Assembly (NCBI GenBank): GCA_002737665.1
Contig: NSIF01000017.1
Span: forward strand, 1-36,273
Direction: 5' to 3'
Length of the DNA stretch: 36,273 bases
From: Flavobacteriales bacterium
GTDB lineage: Bacteria; Bacteroidota; Bacteroidia; Palsa-965
The stretch's first letter is position 1; each line of letters opens with the position of its first letter. This document shows positions 3,410 to 25,618 of this stretch, piece by piece. The translations under genes and the position numbers were made by a program. Under the pieces are notes generated by a model. The model had not been told where the DNA came from. It saw only the letters and a list, made by a program, of their open reading frames with translations, and did no database searches.

Positions 3410-3482
3410 GCCGGTGTAGCTCAGCTGGTAGAGCAGCTGATTTGTAATCAGCAGGTCGGAGGTTCGATTCCCTTCGCCGGCT
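3410..3482 (+). tRNA. tRNA-Thr (anticodon TGT)
   Basis: Cloverleaf with GCCGGTG/CGCCGGC acceptor, loop tttgtaa, GGTTCGATTCC T-arm. Confidence 0.95.
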
Positions 3483-3543
3483 CAACACACCTTTATTGTT
3501 GTCTGCCTTGACATTCGAATTTGCACATCATCAATGGCTTCGA

Positions 3544-3625
3544 GGGGAGATACTCAAGCGGCCAACGAGGACAGACTGTAAATCTGTTGACTTAGTCTTC
3601 ACAGGTTCGAATCCTGTTCTCCCCA
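3544..3625 (+). tRNA. tRNA-Tyr (anticodon GTA)
   Basis: GGGGAGA/TCTCCCC acceptor, long variable arm, anticodon loop ctGTAaa. Confidence 0.95.
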
Positions 3626-3651
3626 CTTTGACCGCAGAGTTAAAAACAAAA

Positions 3652-3724
3652 GCGGAAGTAGCTCATTTGGTAGAGCGATAGCCTTCCAAGCTATAGGTGG
3701 CCGGTTCGAGCCCGGTCTTCCGCT
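3652..3724 (+). tRNA. tRNA-Gly (anticodon TCC)
   Basis: GCGGAAG/CTTCCGC acceptor, loop ctTCCaa. Confidence 0.95.
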
Positions 3725-3787
3725 CATTAATTATTAAAATTTCCATTGGAAAGATGAATAATAAAAAAATGATAACTCCTGATAATC

Positions 3788-3859
<72 letters not shown>

Positions 3860-3958
3860 CTCCAGAGGGACTCAAATTGGCAAAGTAATTGAAAAAAATA
3901 GTGTTAAATAGTAAATCATTCATATAAGTAATAACAATCACCAAATAAATAAATAGCA

Positions 3959-5146
3959 ATGGCAAAAGAAAAATTTGACCGCTCAAAACCTCACGTGAAC
4001 GTGGGAACCATCGGTCACGTTGACCACGGCAAGACGACCCTTACCGCTGCAATCACAAAAGTTTTAGCATCTAAAGGACTAGCTGAAGTTCGCGACTTTT
4101 CGTCTATCGACAACGCACCTGAAGAAAAAGCTCGTGGTATCACAATTAACACCGCTCACGTGGAGTATTCAACGGTATTGCGCCATTATGCGCACGTTGA
4201 CTGCCCAGGTCACGCTGACTATGTAAAAAACATGGTTACAGGTGCTGCCCAAATGGACGGCGCTATACTTGTTGTAGCTGCAACTGATGGTCCTATGCCA
4301 CAAACTCGTGAGCATATCCTTCTTGCTCGTCAAGTAGGTGTTCCTGAAATTGTTGTGTTCATGAACAAAGTCGATATGGTTGATGATGAAGAACTTCTTG
4401 ACCTAGTTGAGATGGAAATTCGTGATCTTCTTGTATTCTATAAATTTCCAGGTACTAAAACTCCAATCATTCGTGGTTCTGCCCTTGGTGGATTGAATGG
4501 TGATGATAAATGGGTTCCAAAAATTATGGAATTAATGGATGCTGTGGATACTTTCATCCCTACTCCAGTTCGTGATAGAGACAAGCCTTTCTTGATGTCT
4601 GTTGAGGACGTATTCACAATCACAGGTCGTGGTACTGTTGCAACTGGCCGTATAGAAACTGGTGTTGTTAACGTTGGAGAAGATGTTGAGATTATTGGAA
4701 TGCAAGTTGATAAACTTAAATCTACCTGCACAGGTGTTGAGATGTTCCGTAAACTTCTTGATAGAGGTGAAGCTGGAGACAATGTTGGTCTTCTACTTCG
4801 TGGTATTGATAAAGATGCTATCCGTCGTGGAATGGTAATCGCGAAACCAGGTTCTATTACACCTCACCATGATTTCAAAGCTGAAATCTACGTTCTTAAA
4901 AAAGAAGAGGGTGGCCGTCACACGCCATTTCACAATAAATACCGTCCACAGTTTTATTTCCGTACAACAGATGTAACAGGAGAGATAGAACTTCCAGAAG
5001 GACGCGAAATGGTAATGCCAGGTGATAACGTTACAATTACAGTAAAATTGATTGTTCCTATTGCTATGGATAAAGGTCTTCGTTTCGCTATCCGCGAAGG
5101 TGGACGTACTGTTGGCGCTGGTCAGGTAATTGAAATTTTGAAATAA
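3959..5146 (+). CDS. tuf: Elongation factor Tu
   Basis: [70 protein letters not shown]. Confidence 0.99.
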
Positions 5147-5274
5147 TCAGGGACCTGTTTCTCCTTAGCGTACGCAAAGGAAAGACAAGATCAAAGACAG
5201 AGAAAAATAATTTTCACTAGAAAATTGAAAATTATTTTTCACTGTTAAATGGAACCTCGCTATCCGACATAAAA

Positions 5275-5345
5275 ACGGGAATAGTTCAATGGTAGAATAG
5301 CGGTCTCCAAAACCGTTGATCTTGGTTCGAGTCCAGGTTCCCGTG
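5275..5345 (+). tRNA. tRNA-Trp (anticodon CCA)
   Basis: ACGGGAA/TTCCCGT acceptor; anticodon loop ctCCAaa; between tuf and secE. Confidence 0.95.
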
Positions 5346-5364
5346 CAAAATAAAAATAGAAGTG

Positions 5365-8560: not shown

Positions 8561-11500
8561 TTGGAAACGACCAAAAAACAGCAACGTATCAGTTTTGCAA
8601 AAAGCAAAGCTCAAATTGATTATCCAGATTTTTTGGATATACAACTTAAATCTTTTCAGGATTTTTTCCAGTTAGAAACAACTAGCGAAAATCGTCAAGA
8701 CGAAGGGTTGTTTAAAGTATTCAGTGAAAATTTTCCAATTACTGATGCTAGAAACAATTTCGTTCTTGAATTCCTGGATTATTTTGTTGACCCTCCACGT
8801 TACACAATTGATGAGTGTATAGAGCGTGGATTAACACACAGTGTGCCGCTTAAGGCAAAACTTCGTCTGTATTGTACGGACCCAGAACACGAAGATTTCG
8901 AAACTATTGTGCAGGATGTTTATTTAGGAATTATTCCTTACATGACGCCTCGCGCTACGTTTGTTATCAATGGTGCTGAGCGTGTTATTGTTTCCCAGCT
9001 TCACCGTTCTCCTGGTGTTTTCTTTGGACAATCTCGCCATGCTAATGGTACGAAACTTTATTCTGCTCGTGTAATTCCTTTTAAAGGATCTTGGATTGAA
9101 TTTGCAACTGACATTAATAATGTCATGTATGCATATATTGATCGTAAGAAAAAATTGCCAGTAACAACCTTGCTTCGCGCAATCGGTTGGGAAAGTGATA
9201 AACAAATTCTTGAACTATTCGGTCTTGCCGATGAAGTGAAAGTTTCTAAAGCTGCTTTGAAAGCAGTGATTGGTCGCAAACTTGCTGCTCGTGTTTTGAA
9301 AACATGGATAGAGGACTTTGTTGATGAAGACACTGGCGAAGTAGTTTCCATTGAACGTAATGAAGTAATCATAGATCGCGAAACCATCCTTGAAAACCAG
9401 CATATCGATCGCATTGTTGATGCAAATGTAAAATCGGTTATTCTTCATAAAGAAGATTCTGCTAATCTAGATTACTCTATAATTTATAATACACTCCAAA
9501 AGGATACTTCAAATTCTGAGAAGGAAGCTGTGGAGCATATTTACCGTCAGCTTCGTAATGCTGAACCACCAGATGAAGAAACAGCTCGTGGAATTATCGA
9601 CAAATTGTTTTTCTCTGATAAACGTTATGACCTCGGTGAGGTTGGTCGTTATCGTATCAACAAAAAATTAAAAGCAACAACATCTGAAGAGGTGCGCGTG
9701 CTCACAAAAGATGATATTATTGCAATCATAAAATATCTTATTGAATTGATTAATTCAAAAGCAGATGTTGATGATATAGATCACTTGTCAAATCGTCGTG
9801 TTCGTACTGTAGGTGAACAACTTTACTCCCAGTTTGGAGTTGGTCTTGCGCGTATGGCAAGAACAATTCGCGAGCGTATGAACGTTCGTGACAATGAAGT
9901 TTTTACACCAACAGATTTGATCAACGCGAAAACTCTTTCGTCCGTAATCAATTCGTTCTTTGGAACAAATCAGCTTTCACAGTTTATGGATCAAACCAAT
10001 CCTTTGGCAGAGATTACGCACAAGCGTCGTCTTTCCGCCCTAGGACCTGGAGGTCTTTCTCGTGAACGTGCAGGATTTGAAGTTCGTGACGTTCATTATA
10101 CTCACTATGGTCGTCTTTGTACAATCGAAACTCCTGAAGGTCCAAACATTGGTTTGATTTCTTCTTTATGTGTTTTTGCGAAAATAAATAAATTAGGTTT
10201 TATTGAAACGCCTTACCGTACAGTCACAAATGGTAAAATTGATATCAATAAGCCAATTATTTATCTTACTGCGGAAGAGGAAGATATGCGTACAATTGCT
10301 CAGGCAAATGCGCTAACAGATGACAAAGGAAATTTCCTTGAGAAACGTCTTAAAGCAAGGTACGAATCAGATTATCCTGTAGTAGAGCCGGAAGTAATTT
10401 CATTGATGGACGTTGCTCCTAATCAAATAGCATCTATTGCTGCTTCATTAATTCCTTTCCTTGAACATGATGATGCTAACCGTGCTCTTATGGGCTCGAA
10501 CATGCAACGTCAGGCAGTTCCACTTCTTCGTCCTGAAGCTCCAATTGTTGGAACAGGACTTGAAGGTTTAATTGCTCGTGACTCACGCGTACTTTGGCAA
10601 GCCGATGGTGATGGAGTAGTTGAATATGTTGACGCATTAGAAATCACAATTCGTTACAATCGTTCCGATAAAGATCGTCTAGTAAGTTTTGACGATGATT
10701 TGAAAACGTATAAAATCACAAAATTCCGTAAGACTAACCAAAGTACTTGTATCAACCTTCGCCCATTGGTAAAGATTGGTGATAAAGTAAAACGTGGTCA
10801 AATTCTTTGCGAAGGTTATGCAACAAAGGATGCCGAAGTTGCATTAGGAAGAAATCTGAAAGTGGCTTTTATGCCATGGAAAGGTTACAATTTTGAGGAT
10901 GCAATTGTTATCAGCGAACGTGTTGTGCGCGATGATATTTTTACCTCGCTTCACATTGATGAATATGTGATGGAAGTGCGTGATACAAAGCGCGGACTTG
11001 AAGAGTTAACTTCTGATATTCCAAACGTTTCTGAAGAGGCAACAAAAGACCTTGATGAAAATGGTTTAATTCGTATTGGTGCAGAAGTAAAGGAAGGTGA
11101 TATTCTTATTGGAAAAATAACTCCAAAAGGAGAAACAGATCCATCACCAGAAGAAAAATTGTTACGTGCAATTTTTGGCGATAAAGCAGGCGATGTAAAA
11201 GACGCATCATTAAAGGTTCCACCATCTATTCGTGGTGTCATCATTGACAAAAAACTTTTCTCTCGTGCTGTCAAGGACAAAAAATTAAGGGCTGACGAAA
11301 AAGTACTTGTCGAAAAGATTGACGCTGAAGAAGCTGCTGAGTTTGCTGCGTTGAAATCAATTCTTGTAGAGAAATTAACTTCTATATTAACTGGAAAAAC
11401 AACTCAAGGTATATTTAGCAACCTCAAAGAAGAAGTTGTTGAGAAAGGAACAAAGTTCTCTGGCAAAGTTCTTGAGAAAATTGATTATGCTAATGTGAAT

Positions 11501-12370
11501 CAATCTAAGTGGACAAATGATGCTGATACAAATGACCTTGTAAAAGCAGTTCTTCACAACTTTAATATCAAGAAAAATGATCTTGGTGGTATTTATAAGC
11601 GTAAGAAATTCGCGCTACAAGTTGGAGACGAATTACCTGCCGGAATTGTTCAGCTTGCTAAAGTTTACATTGCTAAAAAACGTAAACTTAAAGTAGGCGA
11701 TAAAATGGCGGGTCGCCATGGAAATAAGGGCATCGTTGCTCGTATTGTACGCGATGAAGATATGCCGTTCCTTGAAGATGGAACAACTGTTGACATTGTG
11801 CTTAATCCACTTGGTGTTCCTTCTCGTATGAATCTTGGACAGATTTACGAAACTGTTTTAGGTTGGGCTGGTCAAAAGCTCGGATTGAAATTCGGTACGC
11901 CAATTTTCGACGGAGCATCAATTGATGAAATCAACGCTTATACAGATCAGGCAGGACTTCCACGTTTCGGTCGTACTTTCTTAACTGATGGTGGCTCAGG
12001 TGAACGTTTTGATCAACCAGCAACTGTTGGTGTGATTTATATGCTGAAGCTAGGTCACATGGTTGATGATAAAATGCACGCGCGTTCAATAGGACCATAC
12101 TCACTCATCACACAACAGCCGCTTGGTGGTAAAGCACAGTTTGGTGGCCAGCGTTTTGGAGAGATGGAAGTTTGGGCACTCGAGGCATTTGGTGCAGCAA
12201 ACATCTTACAGGAAATTCTTACCATCAAATCTGATGATGTTGTAGGCCGTGCAAAAGCTTATGAAGCCATTGTTAAAGGTGAGAACATGCCAACTCCAGG
12301 AATTCCGGAATCATTCAACGTATTGTTGCATGAACTTAGAGGTCTTGCGCTAAATGTTAGTCTTGATTAA
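8561..12370 (+). CDS. rpoB: DNA-directed RNA polymerase subunit beta (TTG start)
   Basis: RpoB signature throughout, e.g. [55 protein letters not shown]; ends [12 protein letters not shown]. Only TTG is available as start. Confidence 0.99.
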
Positions 12371-12417
12371 TTTAATAAAGTCAGTTTTTATTTTCACGAA
12401 CGAAAACAAAATACGAT

Positions 12418-15400
12418 ATGTCTTTTAGAAAAGATATCAAAGTAAAAAGTAACTTCTCTACGATCACGATCAGTTTGGCTTCTCCTGAATCCATTCTAGA
12501 ACGTTCGAGCGGTGAAGTTTTAAAGCCTGAAACTATTAACTACCGTACTTACAAACCTGAGCGAGATGGTTTGTTTTGCGAAAGAATATTTGGGCCAGTA
12601 AAAGATTGGGAATGTCATTGTGGTAAATACAAGCGAATCCGATACAAAGGAATTGTTTGCGATCGCTGTGGCGTTGAAGTAACGGAGAAAAAAGTACGTC
12701 GCGAGCGTATGGGACATATCAATTTGACTGTACCCGTTGCTCACATTTGGTACTTCCGTTCTTTACCAAATAAAATAGGATATCTTCTTGGTCTTCCAAC
12801 GAAGAAATTAGATATGATTATTTACTACGAACGTTATGTAGTAATTAATGCTGGTATTAAATCTGAAGATGGAATTCAATACATGGATTTCCTTACTGAG
12901 GAACAATACCTTGAAATTCTTGATGCACTTCCAAAGGAAAATCTTCAGCTTGATGACATGGACCCTAATAAGTTCGTTGCTCGTATGGGTGCAGAAGCGT
13001 TGTATGATTTATTGCAGCGCACAAAATTGGATGAACTTTCGTATGACTTACGAAATAAAGCAAACACCGAGACTTCTCAGCAACGCAAAAATGAAGCATT
13101 GAAACGTCTTCAAGTTGTAGAAGCGTTCCGTCATGCAAACAAACATGTTGAGAATAATCCAGAATGGATGATTATCAAAGTTGTTCCTGTAATACCACCG
13201 GAGCTTCGACCTCTTGTTCCGTTAGATGGTGGCCGTTTTGCAACTTCTGATTTGAACGATTTATACCGTCGTGTTATTATTCGTAATAATCGTTTGAAGC
13301 GATTAATTGAAATTAAAGCTCCTGATGTAATTCTTCGTAACGAGAAGCGTATGTTGCAGGAAGCTGTTGACTCATTATTTGATAATTCACGTAAATCAAA
13401 TGCTGTAAAAACAGAATCCAACCGCGCACTTAAATCACTTTCTGATTCGTTGAAAGGAAAGCAAGGCCGTTTCCGTCAAAATTTACTTGGAAAACGTGTT
13501 GATTATTCTGCGCGTTCTGTAATCGTCGTTGGGCCAGATTTAAAATTACACGAGTGTGGATTGCCAAAAGATATGGCAGCCGAACTTTTCAAACCATTTA
13601 TTATTCGTAAGCTTATCGAGCGTGGAATTGTAAAAACAGTTAAGTCAGCGAAAAAAATCGTTGATAGAAAAGACGCTGTAGTTTGGGATATTCTTGAGAA
13701 CGTACTTCGTGGACATCCAGTATTATTGAACCGTGCTCCAACACTTCACAGATTAGGAATTCAAGCTTTTCAACCAAAGTTAATTGAAGGAAAAGCTATT
13801 CAATTGCATCCACTTGTTTGTACAGCTTTCAACGCCGATTTTGACGGTGACCAAATGGCGGTGCATGTTCCACTTGGGAACGCAGCTATTTTGGAAGCAC
13901 AAATTTTAATGCTTGCATCTCACAATATTTTGAATCCTGCCAATGGTGCTCCAATTGCTGTTCCTTCACAGGATATGGTTCTTGGGTTGTATTATATGAC
14001 TAAAGGAATGCGCACCGACAAAACCGTTACCGTTAAAGGTGAGGGATTAAAATTCTATAGCGCAGAAGAAGCAATTATTGCCTATAACGAAGGACGCGTT
14101 CAGCTCCATGCTTGGGTTCATGTAAAAATTCAAAACCATAAAGAAGGGGGACAACTCATTCCGAAAGTTATTGAAACAACACTTGGTCGAATTATTTTCA
14201 ACAAAGTTGTTCCGCATGAGGCTGGTTATATCAACGAATTGCTTACTAAAAAATCGTTGCGAGATATTATTGGTGCAATTGTGAAAGAAACAGGAATGGC
14301 AAAAACAGCCAAATTCCTAGATGACATTAAAGAACTTGGTTTCCGTATGGCTTTCAAAGGCGGATTATCATTTAACCTAGGTGACATTATTGTGCCGGAA
14401 GAAAAAGTAAAAATGATTTCTGAAGCTAACAATCTAGTGGAGGAAGTGAGATCTAATTATAACATGGGTTTCATTACCAACAATGAGCGTTACAATCAGA
14501 TTATTGATATTTGGACTCACACAAACAACAGAATTACAAAACGTGTATTGGATCAGTTGTCGTCAGATCGACAAGGTTTTAATCCTGTTTATATGATGCT
14601 TGATTCTGGTGCACGTGGATCTAAGGAGCAAATTAAACAGCTTGGTGGAATGCGCGGATTGATGGCAAAACCTTCAAAAGCTGGTTCATTGGGTGGAGAA
14701 ATTATTGAGAATCCAGTTATTTCAAATTTCAAAGAAGGTCTTTCTATTCTAGAATATTTTATTTCAACACACGGTGCGCGTAAAGGACTTGCCGATACAG
14801 CTTTGAAAACTGCAGATGCTGGTTATCTTACACGTCGACTTGTTGACGTTGCACAGGACGTTGTAATTAATGAAGTTGATTGTGGCACTTTACGAGGTTT
14901 GATTGCAATTCCTCTTAAGAAAAATGAAGAGATTACTGAATCGTTGTACGATCGTATTCTTGGTCGCACTTCAGTTCACGATGTTTATGATCCACAAACT
15001 GGCGATTTAATTATCGAATCAGGAATGGAAATTACAGAGGACTACGCGGCAAGAATTGAAAATTCAGCGATAGAGTCAGTTGAAATCCGATCTGTACTTA
15101 CTTGTGAATCTAAATCTGGAGTTTGTGGCAAATGCTACGGAAGAAATCTTGCTTCTGGTCGTATGGTTCAACAAGGAGAGGCTGTTGGTGTTATCGCTGC
15201 GCAGTCTATTGGAGAGCCAGGCACACAGTTAACACTTCGTACATTCCACGTTGGAGGAACTGCGTCAAGTGTTGCAGCTGCTTCTAAATTAGAAGCGAAG
15301 TATGATGGTGTTATCGAAATTGAAGAGTTGCGCACGGTGAAACGTAAGAATGCAGATGGGGCAGTTGTTGATGTTGTTATCGGACGTTCTGCTGAAATGC

Positions 15401-16719
15401 GAATTGTTGATGTGAATACAAAAATTGTTCTTACTACAGGAAACGTTCCTTACGGTTCGCAATTATTTGTTAAAAATGGTTCTGCCATAAAGAAAGGTCA
15501 AACCATTTGCGATTGGGATCCTTACAATGCGGTTATCGTTTCTGAATTTGGTGGTAAACTTAAATTCGAACATATCGAAGAAGGTGTTACGTTCCGTGAA
15601 GAGACTGACGAGCAAACAGGTTTCCATGAAAAAGTAATTATCGAGTCAAGAGACAAAACAAAAAATCCTTCTATTCAAATTATGAGTGGCAGTGATGTTT
15701 TGAAAAATTACAATATTCCTATCGCAGCACATATTGTTGTTGATAATGGCAACAAGATTGAGCCGGGACAAATTCTTGTAAAAATTCCGAGATCATCTGG
15801 TAAAACAGGTGACATCACAGGAGGTTTACCTCGTGTAACAGAACTTTTCGAAGCAAGGAATCCTTCTAATCCTGCTGTGGTTACTGAAATAGATGGTGTA
15901 GTAACTTTCGGAAAAATTAAACGTGGTAATCGTGAAGTGCTTGTAGAATCTCGCACTGGCGAACGTAAAACATATCTTGTTCCTTTATCCAAACACATTC
16001 TTGTTCAGGAAAATGATTTCGTTCGTGCAGGTGAAGCTTTATCAGATGGATCGATTAGTCCTGCAGATATTCTTGCAATAAAAGGGCCAACTGCCGTTCA
16101 GGAATACTTAGTAAACGAAGTTCAAGAAGTTTATCGTTTGCAAGGTGTAAAAATCAATGACAAACATTTTGAAGTTATTGTCCGTCAGATGATGCGCAAA
16201 GTGGACATTGTTGATCCGGGCGATACTGTTTTCTTGGAAACACAGCTAGCAAATAAAGCTGATTTCATGAATGAAAACGATAAATTGTTTGGCAAAAAAG
16301 TTGTTATTGAGCCAGGAGATTCTCCAAACATTAAAGCAGGTCAAATTATTTCTGCTCGAAAGCTTCGTGATGAAAATTCTATGTTGAAGCGTAAAGATTT
16401 TAAATTGATTGAAGCTCGAGATGCAATTACAGCCACTTCATCACAGATTCTTCAAGGTATAACACGTGCTTCTTTACAGACTAATTCATGGGTTTCAGCT
16501 GCTTCTTTCCAAGAAACAACTAAGGTTCTAAATGAAGCTGCTGTAAATGGTAAAGTGGATACGCTTAACGGACTAAAAGAAAACGTTATTGTCGGTCACC
16601 TTATTCCTGCTGGAACAGGTCATCGCACATACGAAAAACTTGTTGTTGGATCCAAAGAAGAATACGAAAAACTCCTTGCTGCTAAAAAAGAAGCAATGGA
16701 AGAAGAGGTTGGAAATTAA
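12418..16719 (+). CDS. rpoC: DNA-directed RNA polymerase subunit beta'
   Basis: [24 protein letters not shown] zinc site; [15 protein letters not shown] catalytic motif. Confidence 0.99.
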
Positions 16720-22815: not shown

Positions 22816-24219
22816 CTAACAAAGGGCCTTTATAATATCGTGTCTGGTAATAATAAAATCGGAGTCCGTTTTGAAATCACGGATTAAAACTGCGGGATTT
22901 TCTGGGGTAATCATTGCCGCGAGCGATTCTACAGGAGTTGAAATGTCAACAAATGGAAATGCTGCCTGCATGATAGTTTCCACTAATTCAGTTTTTTGAT
23001 CTGGGTTTTTTACTAAGCAATTAAATAATTGTAGCTCGTTAATTGACCCAACAATTCTTCCTTGGTTTGTAACCGGCATTTGAGAAAAATCATTTTCGCG
23101 CATAATTTTTACGGCACGTTCTATTGGCTCATTAAATTCAATCGACTTAAGTTTTGCACCTTTAATTGCCGACACAACATCTTTGGCGGTCTGTCCTTTG
23201 GGTTCAAAAAATCCTTTCTCTCGCATCCACTCATCATTGTACATTTTTCCTAAGTAGCGCGTGCCATGGTCGTGAAAGATAACCACCACCACATCACTTT
23301 CTTTTAATTTAGAACACAATTGCAGCAGTCCCGCCATTGCAGAGCCAGCAGAGTTTCCTGCAAAGATTCCTTCTTCTTTGGTAATGCGGCGTGTCATTAT
23401 TGCCGCGTCTTTATCCGTAACCTTTTCAAATAAATCAATAATACTAAAGTTCACATTCTCTGGAAGAAAATCTTCGCCAATACCTTCTGTAATATATGGG
23501 TAGATTTCATTTTTGTCGAAAATACCAGTCTCCTTATATTTTTTAAAAACAGAACCATAGGTGTCAATTCCCCAAATTTGCACGTTCGGATTTTTTTCTT
23601 TTAAAAACTTGCCCGTTCCACAAATTGTTCCACCTGTGCCAACGCCAACTACCAAATGTGTAATTTTTCCTTCGGTCTGTTCCCATATCTCAGGCCCCGT
23701 TTGTTCATAGTGTGCTTTCGAATTGGAAAGGTTGTCGTACTGATTAGGTTTCCAGGAATTTGGTATTTCATTTATTAATCTTGACGATACAGAATAATAG
23801 GAACGAGGATCTTCTGGTTCAACATTAGTAGGACAAACAATTACCTCAGCTCCAAAAGCTTTTAGTGCATCCACCTTTTCTTTTGATTGTTTATCTGTTG
23901 TAGTAAAAATGCATTTGTACCCTTTTATAATCGCTGCAATTGCTAAACCCATTCCCGTATTGCCCGATGTTCCTTCTATAATGGTCCCACCAGGTTTTAA
24001 TCGGCCATCTAATTCTGCGTCTTCAATCATTTTTAAAGCCATTCTGTCTTTAATAGAATTGCCAGGATTAAAAGTTTCTACTTTAGCGTAAACACTTGCA
24101 TTAGTTAATCCTTTTGTGAGTGTATTAATTCGAACAAGTGGCGTATTTCCAATTGCACCGAGAATATTTTCGTAAACATGTTTGCTAGGATTCACAGGGG
24201 TAGTTTTAGGAGTGTACAA
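22816..24219 (-). CDS. Cystathionine beta-synthase-like PLP enzyme with C-terminal CBS domain pair
   Basis: ILGAIGNTPLVRIN, NPGNSIKDRMALKMIEDAE, EGTSGNTGMGLAIAA, GVGTGGTICGTGKFLKEKNP; C-terminal IERAVKIMRENDFSQMPVTNQGRIVGSINE. Confidence 0.88.
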   Translation of the reverse strand: MYTPKTTPVNPSKHVYENILGAIGNTPLVRINTLTKGLTNASVYAKVETFNPGNSIKDRMALKMIEDAELDGRLKPGGTIIEGTSGNTGMGLAIAAIIKGYKCIFTTTDKQSKEKVDALKAFGAEVIVCPTNVEPEDPRSYYSVSSRLINEIPNSWKPNQYDNLSNSKAHYEQTGPEIWEQTEGKITHLVVGVGTGGTICGTGKFLKEKNPNVQIWGIDTYGSVFKKYKETGIFDKNEIYPYITEGIGEDFLPENVNFSIIDLFEKVTDKDAAIMTRRITKEEGIFAGNSAGSAMAGLLQLCSKLKESDVVVVIFHDHGTRYLGKMYNDEWMREKGFFEPKGQTAKDVVSAIKGAKLKSIEFNEPIERAVKIMRENDFSQMPVTNQGRIVGSINELQLFNCLVKNPDQKTELVETIMQAAFPFVDISTPVESLAAMITPENPAVLIRDFKTDSDFIITRHDIIKALC

Positions 24220-24308
24220 ATGTAATATTTTACTCAGGTATTTCGATTAATGTCATAGCAGATTTTGGTTTTTAAGAGCACGAAATCGAAGTATTAAAGA
24301 AATAGTTA

Positions 24309-24357
24309 CCTGCTTTCCGCTACAAGTCCGGTGGGGCTTTTCGCTGCAATCAGGGCT
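24309..24357. repeat. Candidate dispersed intergenic repeat (REP/MITE-like) with central hairpin
   Basis: cctgctttccgctac-AAGTCC-ggtg-GGGCTT-ttcgctgcaatcagggct. Termini (TAGCGGAAAGCAGG ... AGCCCTGATTGCAGCG on the minus strand) resemble, from memory, a motif recurring in Flavobacteriia intergenic regions; only one copy seen in this window. Confidence 0.5.
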
Positions 24358-24376
24358 ATTTAGAGCATTCACAGTA

Positions 24377-25618
24377 CTAACTAAACCGAATGGCTTTCAC
24401 CGGTGAAATTTTGGTTACAATTAAAGCTGGAATTAAAAGAGCTATTTGGCAGAGTAGTAGTGTTGCTGTATTTAGAAATAATATGTTAAGCCAATTGATC
24501 GAAATAGGAACTGTTTTTAAATAGTAAGAGGCCTCTTCCAATTGTACAATACCAAAATGACTTTGCAAAAAACACAGTCCCAATCCCAACAAGTTTCCAA
24601 TAAGCAATCCCAATAAAATTAATTTGGAAGCGTGAATTAAAAACACAGTAGTAATATTTTTGTTTGTCGCCCCCATCGCTTTTAAAACTCCAATCATGTT
24701 AGTGCGATCAAGAATTAAAATAATTAAGGCACTAATCATATTGATCATGCTTACAAATAAAAGGAGCACAATTATGATAATCGCATTCACATCCAACACA
24801 TCTAGCCAAGAAAAAATTTGTGGTGTCAATTCTTTTATGCTTTTTGCGTTCAAATTTGCATCTATCGTATTGTTTATAGTAGCTGTTACTTCGTCCAGCA
24901 CTTCATAGGAGTTTACCAATACTTCAAACCCAGCAACTGAATTTTCTTCCCAATTATTAAGCTTTTGCACTTGGCGAATGTCGCATAACAAAAACAAATC
25001 ATCAAAGCCATCAATCAATCCAGTTTCATAAATCCCAGCAACTCGAAATGCACGTTGCTTTGTTTCATTGTTTAGGAGAAAAAACATTCTGAATTTTTTC
25101 CCAATTTGAAGATTCATTTTATTAGCAATAAAACGGGAAACCAAAACCTGATCACTTATTGTGTCTTGGCATTCGAAAATCTTCCCTTCTTTCAAATTTT
25201 GTTTAAAAAAAAGCCAGTCAAAATTTTTGTCAATACCTTTTAAAACAACTCCCATCAGTTGGTCATCAGTTTTAATAATCCCTGCTTTAGTGGCAAACAC
25301 TTGAACATGCCTTACACCTGGAAGTTTTTTTATGTTCTCAATACTCGGTTGGACTTTGCTCATCGAATCCATTTCAAAAGATTCGTTTGTATTGTAAGCG
25401 GTAATCTGTATATGCGATCCAAAACCAATAACTTTTTGGCGAATGGATTGTTTGAATCCGTTCATCACCGCCAATGTTAAAATCATCACCGCTATTCCTA
25501 TGGCTATTCCGCCAACAGCTACCCTCACAATTGGCTTTGAAATCCGCCCACTGGAATCCGCCTGGTTGAGCATGCGACTAGCAATAAGTCGTTCGAAAAA
25601 TAATCGGGCCATGTACAA
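24377..25618 (-). CDS. FtsX-like / LolC-LolE-type ABC transporter permease
   Basis: MYMARLFFERLIASRML...GGIAIGIAVMILTLAVMNGFKQSI; four TM pattern; LDRTNMIGVLKAMGATNKNITTVFLIHA. Confidence 0.83.
   Translation of the reverse strand: MYMARLFFERLIASRMLNQADSSGRISKPIVRVAVGGIAIGIAVMILTLAVMNGFKQSIRQKVIGFGSHIQITAYNTNESFEMDSMSKVQPSIENIKKLPGVRHVQVFATKAGIIKTDDQLMGVVLKGIDKNFDWLFFKQNLKEGKIFECQDTISDQVLVSRFIANKMNLQIGKKFRMFFLLNNETKQRAFRVAGIYETGLIDGFDDLFLLCDIRQVQKLNNWEENSVAGFEVLVNSYEVLDEVTATINNTIDANLNAKSIKELTPQIFSWLDVLDVNAIIIIVLLLFVSMINMISALIILILDRTNMIGVLKAMGATNKNITTVFLIHASKLILLGLLIGNLLGLGLCFLQSHFGIVQLEEASYYLKTVPISINWLNILFLNTATLLLCQIALLIPALIVTKISPVKAIRFS

Follow-up and report, generated by a model that had tools for sequence, protein, structure and literature searches.

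The hairpin at positions 24309-24357 of the window (the whole stretch of DNA analysed, 36,273 nucleotides) belongs to Flavo-1 (Rfam RF01705), a family for which the discovery paper of 2010 gives a table entry (PMC2864571) and which is filed by Rfam as 'Gene; sRNA'. The best explanation of the data, with about equal chances of being right and wrong, is that Flavo-1 is a dispersed DNA element of the REP-like, non-autonomous kind, spreading and being recognised in the form of a folded single strand. The family behaves as DNA because its copies are orientation-neutral towards genes, show bursts of copy number between congeners, are present or absent at the same junction in related species, and are found in phages, a microvirus and conjugative plasmids.

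The window copy and its family

The sequence-only reading had taken this stretch for one of a dispersed set of REP/MITE-like elements between genes, in which conserved termini enclose a variable hairpin, built on a recurrent motif. Both points were borne out, the motif being that of the named family: the window copy exceeds the gathering score of RF01705 (42) over the full length of the model (positions 1-76), and further copies are found across Bacteroidota. The minus-strand letters, AGCCCTGATTGCAGCG-AAAAGCCCCACCGGACTTG-TAGCGGAAAGCAGG, had been read correctly, but the limits 24309-24357 were too narrow, as comparison with relatives places the whole element from ~24376 to ~24276, longer than Rfam's model. 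It had missed the existing name, the extension on both sides and the related architecture that phages and plasmids carry. The features of the region are as follows.

24377 to 25618, minus strand: upstream neighbour, MacB_PCD/FtsX-like permease (Pfam PF12704, PF02687)
24358 to 24376, minus strand: left type A extension TACTGTGAATGCTCTAAAT, abutting the upstream stop codon, like ACTGRGATGGTCTRAAATAG of the copies in genome G006
24302 to 24361, minus strand: RF01705 Flavo-1 match, core hairpin P2 and short flanks (44.7 bits, E 1.3e-6)
24342 to 24357, minus strand: 5' arm of P2, AGCCCTGATTGCAGCG, with covarying X=T, W=T and Y=C, pairing with the 3' arm
24323 to 24341, minus strand: inner arm and apical hairpin AAAAGCCCCACCGGACTTG (AAG-CTT stem, C.A mismatch, CC-GG), by DNA fold
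24309 to 24322, minus strand: 3' arm of P2, TAGCGGAAAGCAGG, by covariation
24276 to 24308, minus strand: right type A extension TAACTATTTCTTTAATACTTCGATTTCGTGCTC, like the right end AACTGNNATTTC..CTGCTCC of the G006 copies
22816 to 24219, minus strand: downstream neighbour, PALP (cystathionine beta-synthase-like) and CBS domain (Pfam PF00291, PF00571)

The stretch 24309-24357 begins 20 nt past the TAG stop (24379-24377) of the permease gene and lies upstream of the PALP+CBS gene, on the same (minus) strand. The left extension starts directly at the stop codon (24376), and the hairpin of the right extension, which ends at ~24276, is degenerate. Each consensus end has one mismatch-free occurrence in the window, the imperfect matches being at chance level. 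The CBS gene probably starts at the GTG at 24195-24193, to judge from an alignment with genome G002. Between the element and this start, TACATTTG (24224-24217, minus strand) is seemingly kept in G002 and G004; it matches TAnnTTTG, the -7 consensus of Bacteroidota promoters. As a member of a known family, the window copy is unremarkable and somewhat degenerate. Elsewhere in the window, five tRNA genes (Thr, Tyr, Gly, Thr, Trp) are arranged around a 395-aa ORF (3410-5346), and this cluster precedes large ORFs at 8561-16719.

The element is not single-copy in its host, whose assembly (66.6% complete) holds five matches at E <= 1e-3, two of them above the gathering score. Same-genus relatives contain 5, 6, 32, 1, 0 and 72 Rfam matches per genome, and swings of this size between congeners are typical of a spreading repeat. 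A copy at E <= 1e-8 is present in 28 of the 119 genomes of a class-level sample, and the comparison set overall comprises ~300 copies from bacteria, phages and plasmids. Flavo-1 is high-copy, intergenic and dispersed, as expected of a REP-type element.

Folding of the element strand

When copies are aligned together with their flanks, the P2 core hairpin is found set in two larger frames. Type A, that of the window, reads TTTGAAACTGRGATGGTCTGAAATAGCCC-(core)-GCGGGAGAAGTG..GAAACTG..ATTTC..CTGCTCC in G006 and has a shorter form in Flavobacterium-like genomes. Type B reads GCGTKAGGGAT-(core)-AGCCCGACC-hairpin-GGGMACGCC and forms a three-way junction with paired ends GCGTN/NACGC. The hairpin feet are TAGCCC..GGGA in type A and GCGTN..NACGC in type B. 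The Rfam model covers the type A core only and finds 1 of 12 viral type B loci.

Between the 5' and 3' arms of P2, four core pairs covary in at least 97% of 177 distinct copies. They are complementary in 176 (W-W), 176 (Y-R), 173 (X-X) and 177 (P-P) of these copies, against ~85, 141, 119 and 152, respectively, expected by shuffling partners within type, and a control position outside the pairs came close to random behaviour. The window copy shows the same conserved P2 pairing in its DNA fold. In type B, P1 covaries as well (GCGTT/AACGC in 90 copies, GCGTG/CACGC in 64). Conserved G.A juxtapositions (GNA opposite GNA) lie between the covarying pairs. The AGYGG/ARCGG arms resemble AAGCGG, which we take to be the PriA effector hexamer. 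Two further loci (L226, at 2451, and L228, minus strand) share P1, the lower P2 and the 3' side while carrying another upper stem, GGGAACCGGCGAGACAGG..TGGCTCGA, and possibly represent a wider class outside Bacteroidota.

With DNA energies, 193/170/201 of 266 element strands have the covarying pairs in their minimum free energy structure, compared with 16/17/52 of the complements, and these pairs are 4-12 times more frequent on the element strand than on its complement. RNA energies give no such asymmetry, both strands forming covarying pairs. That the element strand also forms its Y-R and X-X pairs under RNA energies counts against the single-stranded DNA reading.

The central stem of six pairs described in the sequence-only reading is present, with T.G on the plus strand and C.A on the minus strand; the idea that this wobble points to plus-strand RNA found no support. 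On the minus (element) strand the core pairs include 23 G.T and 3 A.C wobbles, and neither is preferred in the apical stems (36 versus 32). As core and apical counts disagree, this G.U-versus-A.C strand test is ambiguous. The C.A mismatch on the element strand is shared by 58 of 60 copies with the window-type inner arm, so that it is a family feature and not a local oddity of the window.

Phages, plasmids and chromosomal sites

A search for the type B pattern that tolerated one mismatch gave 139 occurrences in G006, compared with two each in G003 and G005, and the reversed-pattern control gave 0. In a genome-collection scan the pattern was nearly confined to Bacteroidota, with one Spirochaetales MAG among the records listed. 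It is present in 46 viral contigs, ~35 of them with a complete element, and the exact type A pattern has zero occurrences in viral contigs. In phages the genes on either side mostly run antisense to the folding strand (16 -- versus 3 ++). In ~11 distinct phages the element lies <= ~25 bp past terL, always antisense. A conserved partnership with terL was rejected, as related prophage terL genes mostly lack the element and the association is sporadic; in the viral searches, neither an alignment of terL nor individual terL proteins performed well as queries. One copy is located in an ssDNA microvirus (Microviridae), upstream of its VP4 (Rep-like) gene.

Among Bacteroides-type plasmids, 84 records match type B; plasmid matches to the window sequence itself were set aside as chance. 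In four plasmid families (pBF9343, p5482-like, CP103219, MT837462), the element starts, with the same polarity, ~10-20 nt past an oriT-like arrangement, which consists of an inverted repeat and TACCTTA-N4-GGGTGGGTGGG. The oriT-like motif was located at the following positions.

L541, 2532 and 3997: oriT-like motif
L542, 3990: oriT-like motif
L545, 3071: oriT-like motif
L248, 444: oriT-like motif

This inverted repeat with its TACCTTA motif is common to several Bacteroides plasmid families and is duplicated in pBF9343. Beside its oriT-like region, p5482 carries an extra hairpin block of ~150 bp that pBxylCL11 lacks (L543 versus L542).

This context brings forward the nearest rival, an unlikely one in our estimation, which holds that the element is a functional single-strand site, either for primosome initiation or as an Frpo-like ssDNA promoter, helping entering ssDNA to be converted or transcribed and kept on chromosomes for lagging-strand or repair priming. 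Frpo and ssi sites are folded ssDNA found in leading regions of plasmids (PMC11541004), and Flavo-1 shares with them a folded single strand with mismatches and, in some plasmids, the position beside an oriT-like signal. Placement in the leading region beside a putative oriT, with the transferred strand as the folding strand, fits the four plasmid families; in two of them ardC, which encodes an ssDNA-binding protein, lies to the left of the element, the folding strand being the ardC template. The microvirus copy, the strand-specific DNA folding and long retention at orthologous chromosomal sites point in the same direction. However, the remaining plasmid copies are in other settings, far from oriT-like motifs, and most sampled Bacteroidia have no high-score copy, so that the element is not needed for replication. 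Unlike Frpo/ssi sites, Flavo-1 is also chromosomal in large numbers, and any promoter or priming activity of its fold is putative. The plasmid context speaks for this rival; the many other contexts do not.

On chromosomes, the orientation of neighbours relative to the element is mixed: among 102 bacterial copies that have near neighbours it is ++ in 32, -- in 24, +- in 28 and -+ in 18 (neighbouring genes were assigned by plain open-reading-frame criteria, and individual cases may be in error). Ends that face a stop codon are nearer to genes than ends that face a start, often within 22 nt. At the window junction, gene order is kept in G002, G004 and G008; G002 shares the element (AACCCCGATGGAAGCGCTTTGCCGCGCAATAGCGACAGCGGG) with the window, and G004 and G008 lack it.

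In a Flavobacterium-like genus, four loci of G068 were searched in 40 other species. Between nuoH and nuoI, 14 of the 20 species fetched (15 with G068) carry the element, with loops that differ yet stay paired, and G409 and G400 are cleanly without it, AAGAACCGTAA being joined directly to TTAGCTTTAAATAA. Judging by these junctions, the absence looks like later loss; no target duplication was seen at clean empty sites, which are probably deletions. At a '--' junction of the same genus some species keep the element and others do not. Conserved copies precede nuoI, metG and rimO in the co-directional orientation, and oppositely (antisense) oriented copies are conserved as well. Loops are more similar within one genome than between orthologous loci (0.264 versus 0.172; permutation p 0.008), and G402 has an identical loop at two loci. 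By these comparisons, the sites are old, with stems maintained and loops exchanged or rewritten, a pattern that fits concerted evolution. It does not fit the simple decay of a dead insertion, and this is the strongest point for a function. Retention of several copies at orthologous sites in many species goes beyond a purely neutral relic and counts against the preferred reading of Flavo-1 as a spreading DNA element. Another repeat, ACTTCACTTAATTT..GGAGTTCAGTGAACTCCGTTTG, is inserted in Flavo-1 arms of several Flavobacterium-like species, at L374 (G401), L372 (G409), L397 (G413) and L394 (G411).

The same data bear on the reading under which Rfam files the family, a small RNA or a cis-regulatory or 3'UTR structure, to which we give a lower probability than to a single-strand site. 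Strong covariation, the core excess of G.T over A.C on the element strand (23 to 3), and the conserved co-directional copies before nuoI, metG and rimO speak for it, and in the Flavobacterium psychrophilum transcriptome some 5' transcribed regions coincide with Flavo-1 matches (PMC9723704). But in that transcriptome the matches are indiscriminately sense or antisense, many of them outside transcribed regions (PMC9723704), the apical stems show no G.U excess, antisense copies are also conserved, and the phage folding strand is mostly antisense. The lack of a transcription-strand preference speaks against a common function as leader RNA or sense-strand 3'UTR; the option of a 3'UTR element, raised in the sequence-only reading, is disfavoured by this and by the published RNA-seq. 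The Flavo-1 RNA of Rfam (Weinberg 2010) has the same P2 core and phylum as the element described here; Rfam treats it as an sRNA gene, with a model limited to the type A core, whereas the family analysed here behaves as a dispersed DNA repeat and has outer parts and a type B. The filing of Flavo-1 as RNA has little support.

Mobilisation, mechanism and meaning

Of the options taken up from the sequence-only reading, a mobilised palindrome fits best, although the search for a mobilising enzyme found none. An all-against-all comparison of ~1900 ORFs near copies returned common families only, with no transposase or cognate gene, and three gcvT neighbours showed inconsistent geometry. A serine recombinase beside plasmid copies was not taken as the enzyme, since it is not seen at chromosomal copies. 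Flavo-1 shares with MITEs the form of a short, non-autonomous dispersed element with covarying ends (those of type B are complementary); no target duplication was seen, and no DDE transposon was found next to copies, nor any DDE transposase with matching ends.

The classical REP mobilised by a RAYT (TnpA-REP, for example of subclass 2.6 of Bacteroidetes) was also considered, and we regard it as improbable to a high degree. Flavo-1 resembles REP/BIME sequences in being short, imperfectly palindromic, intergenic and present in many copies, with one strand that folds better. Subclass 2.6 RAYTs have been described with atypical flanking structures and without GTAG-type REPs (PMC6006769), and RAYT-like genes (NHxH, YIHxNP; ~180 aa) exist in the genus of the window (loci L026, L027, L020, L019 and L028). 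These genes are nevertheless not adjacent to Flavo-1 but flanked by genome-specific palindromes (CCGCAGGATTTGCAAATCCTGCGG, CTCGTTTGTAACGAG or GTCGGG..CCCGAC), and the RAYT was rejected as mobiliser after 12 genus or family genomes and 119 class genomes had been searched and the flanks read. The loci examined are unassociated with Flavo-1, except for one IS200-like gene with its own palindrome, and Flavo-1-rich genomes exist without any Y1_Tnp match (G019, with 21 copies, and G025, with 6). Unlike REP/BIME sequences, Flavo-1 is longer, has no GTAG or CGTC tetranucleotide at the foot of type A or type B, flanks no RAYT, and contains tandem G.A steps and a three-way junction. The classical REP-RAYT pair is unsupported because no gene recurs beside the copies and the Y1/RAYT genes carry other palindromes. 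Bacteroidota genes of IS200-like subclass 1.2 (Y..Q..HH, ~150 aa), listed in a survey as being without REPs (PMC6006769), have short flanking palindromes of their own (IS200-like Y1 genes at loci L021, L025, L095, L107 and L108).

Least probable of all is a transcription terminator or mRNA 3'-end stabiliser, suggested by element ends often 0-22 nt from stop codons and by the position after terL in phages, since most copies have no T-run after the hairpin in either direction, orientation is neutral, the rimO copy lies beyond the U-run of a separate terminator, and the window hairpin has no T-run on the minus strand and a single terminator-scan match, on the strand antisense to both genes.

Under the preferred reading of a DNA element spread as a folded single strand, the strand would become single during replication, conjugal entry or an ssDNA phage stage, and would fold into a stem interrupted by tandem G.A steps. 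A candidate trans-acting, ssDNA-handling enzyme would bind this fold and copy or insert it into other intergenic sites; it is from the folding as ssDNA that we infer spread by an ssDNA-processing enzyme. Deletion between short repeats across the hairpin could eliminate the element, and exchange between copies could maintain stem pairing as the loops change. The window copy, flanked by the stop codon of the permease and by the CBS gene's promoter region, would be tolerated there and not form part of the CBS gene. Copies on both strands of one 1.1 Mb contig (G068:C11) count against this mechanism, as they are unlike known lagging-strand ssDNA transposition.

A broader proposal is made more tentatively, as it has a lesser chance of being correct: Flavo-1 may be no RNA family but the type A branch of a Bacteroidota-wide set of DNA elements that act in single-stranded, folded form, with tandem sheared G.A steps, reside on chromosomes, dsDNA phages, microviruses and conjugative plasmids (in some beside the transfer origin), and exchange their loops via an ssDNA-processing system. 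As far as the literature shows, the type B class, the folding as single-stranded DNA and the distribution over phages and plasmids have not been described.

Since 2010 Flavo-1 has been classed among the RNAs that lack an assigned function. Should it prove to be a DNA element that acts single-stranded, it ought to leave the sRNA class, and the annotation of its copies as RNA genes should cease. The type B consensus and the orthologous junctions with and without the element are ready test substrates and strains, and the reading as a folded single DNA strand makes its role testable. On the same condition of a DNA element acting single-stranded, one ssDNA-handling system may link the chromosomes, phages and conjugative plasmids of Bacteroidota.
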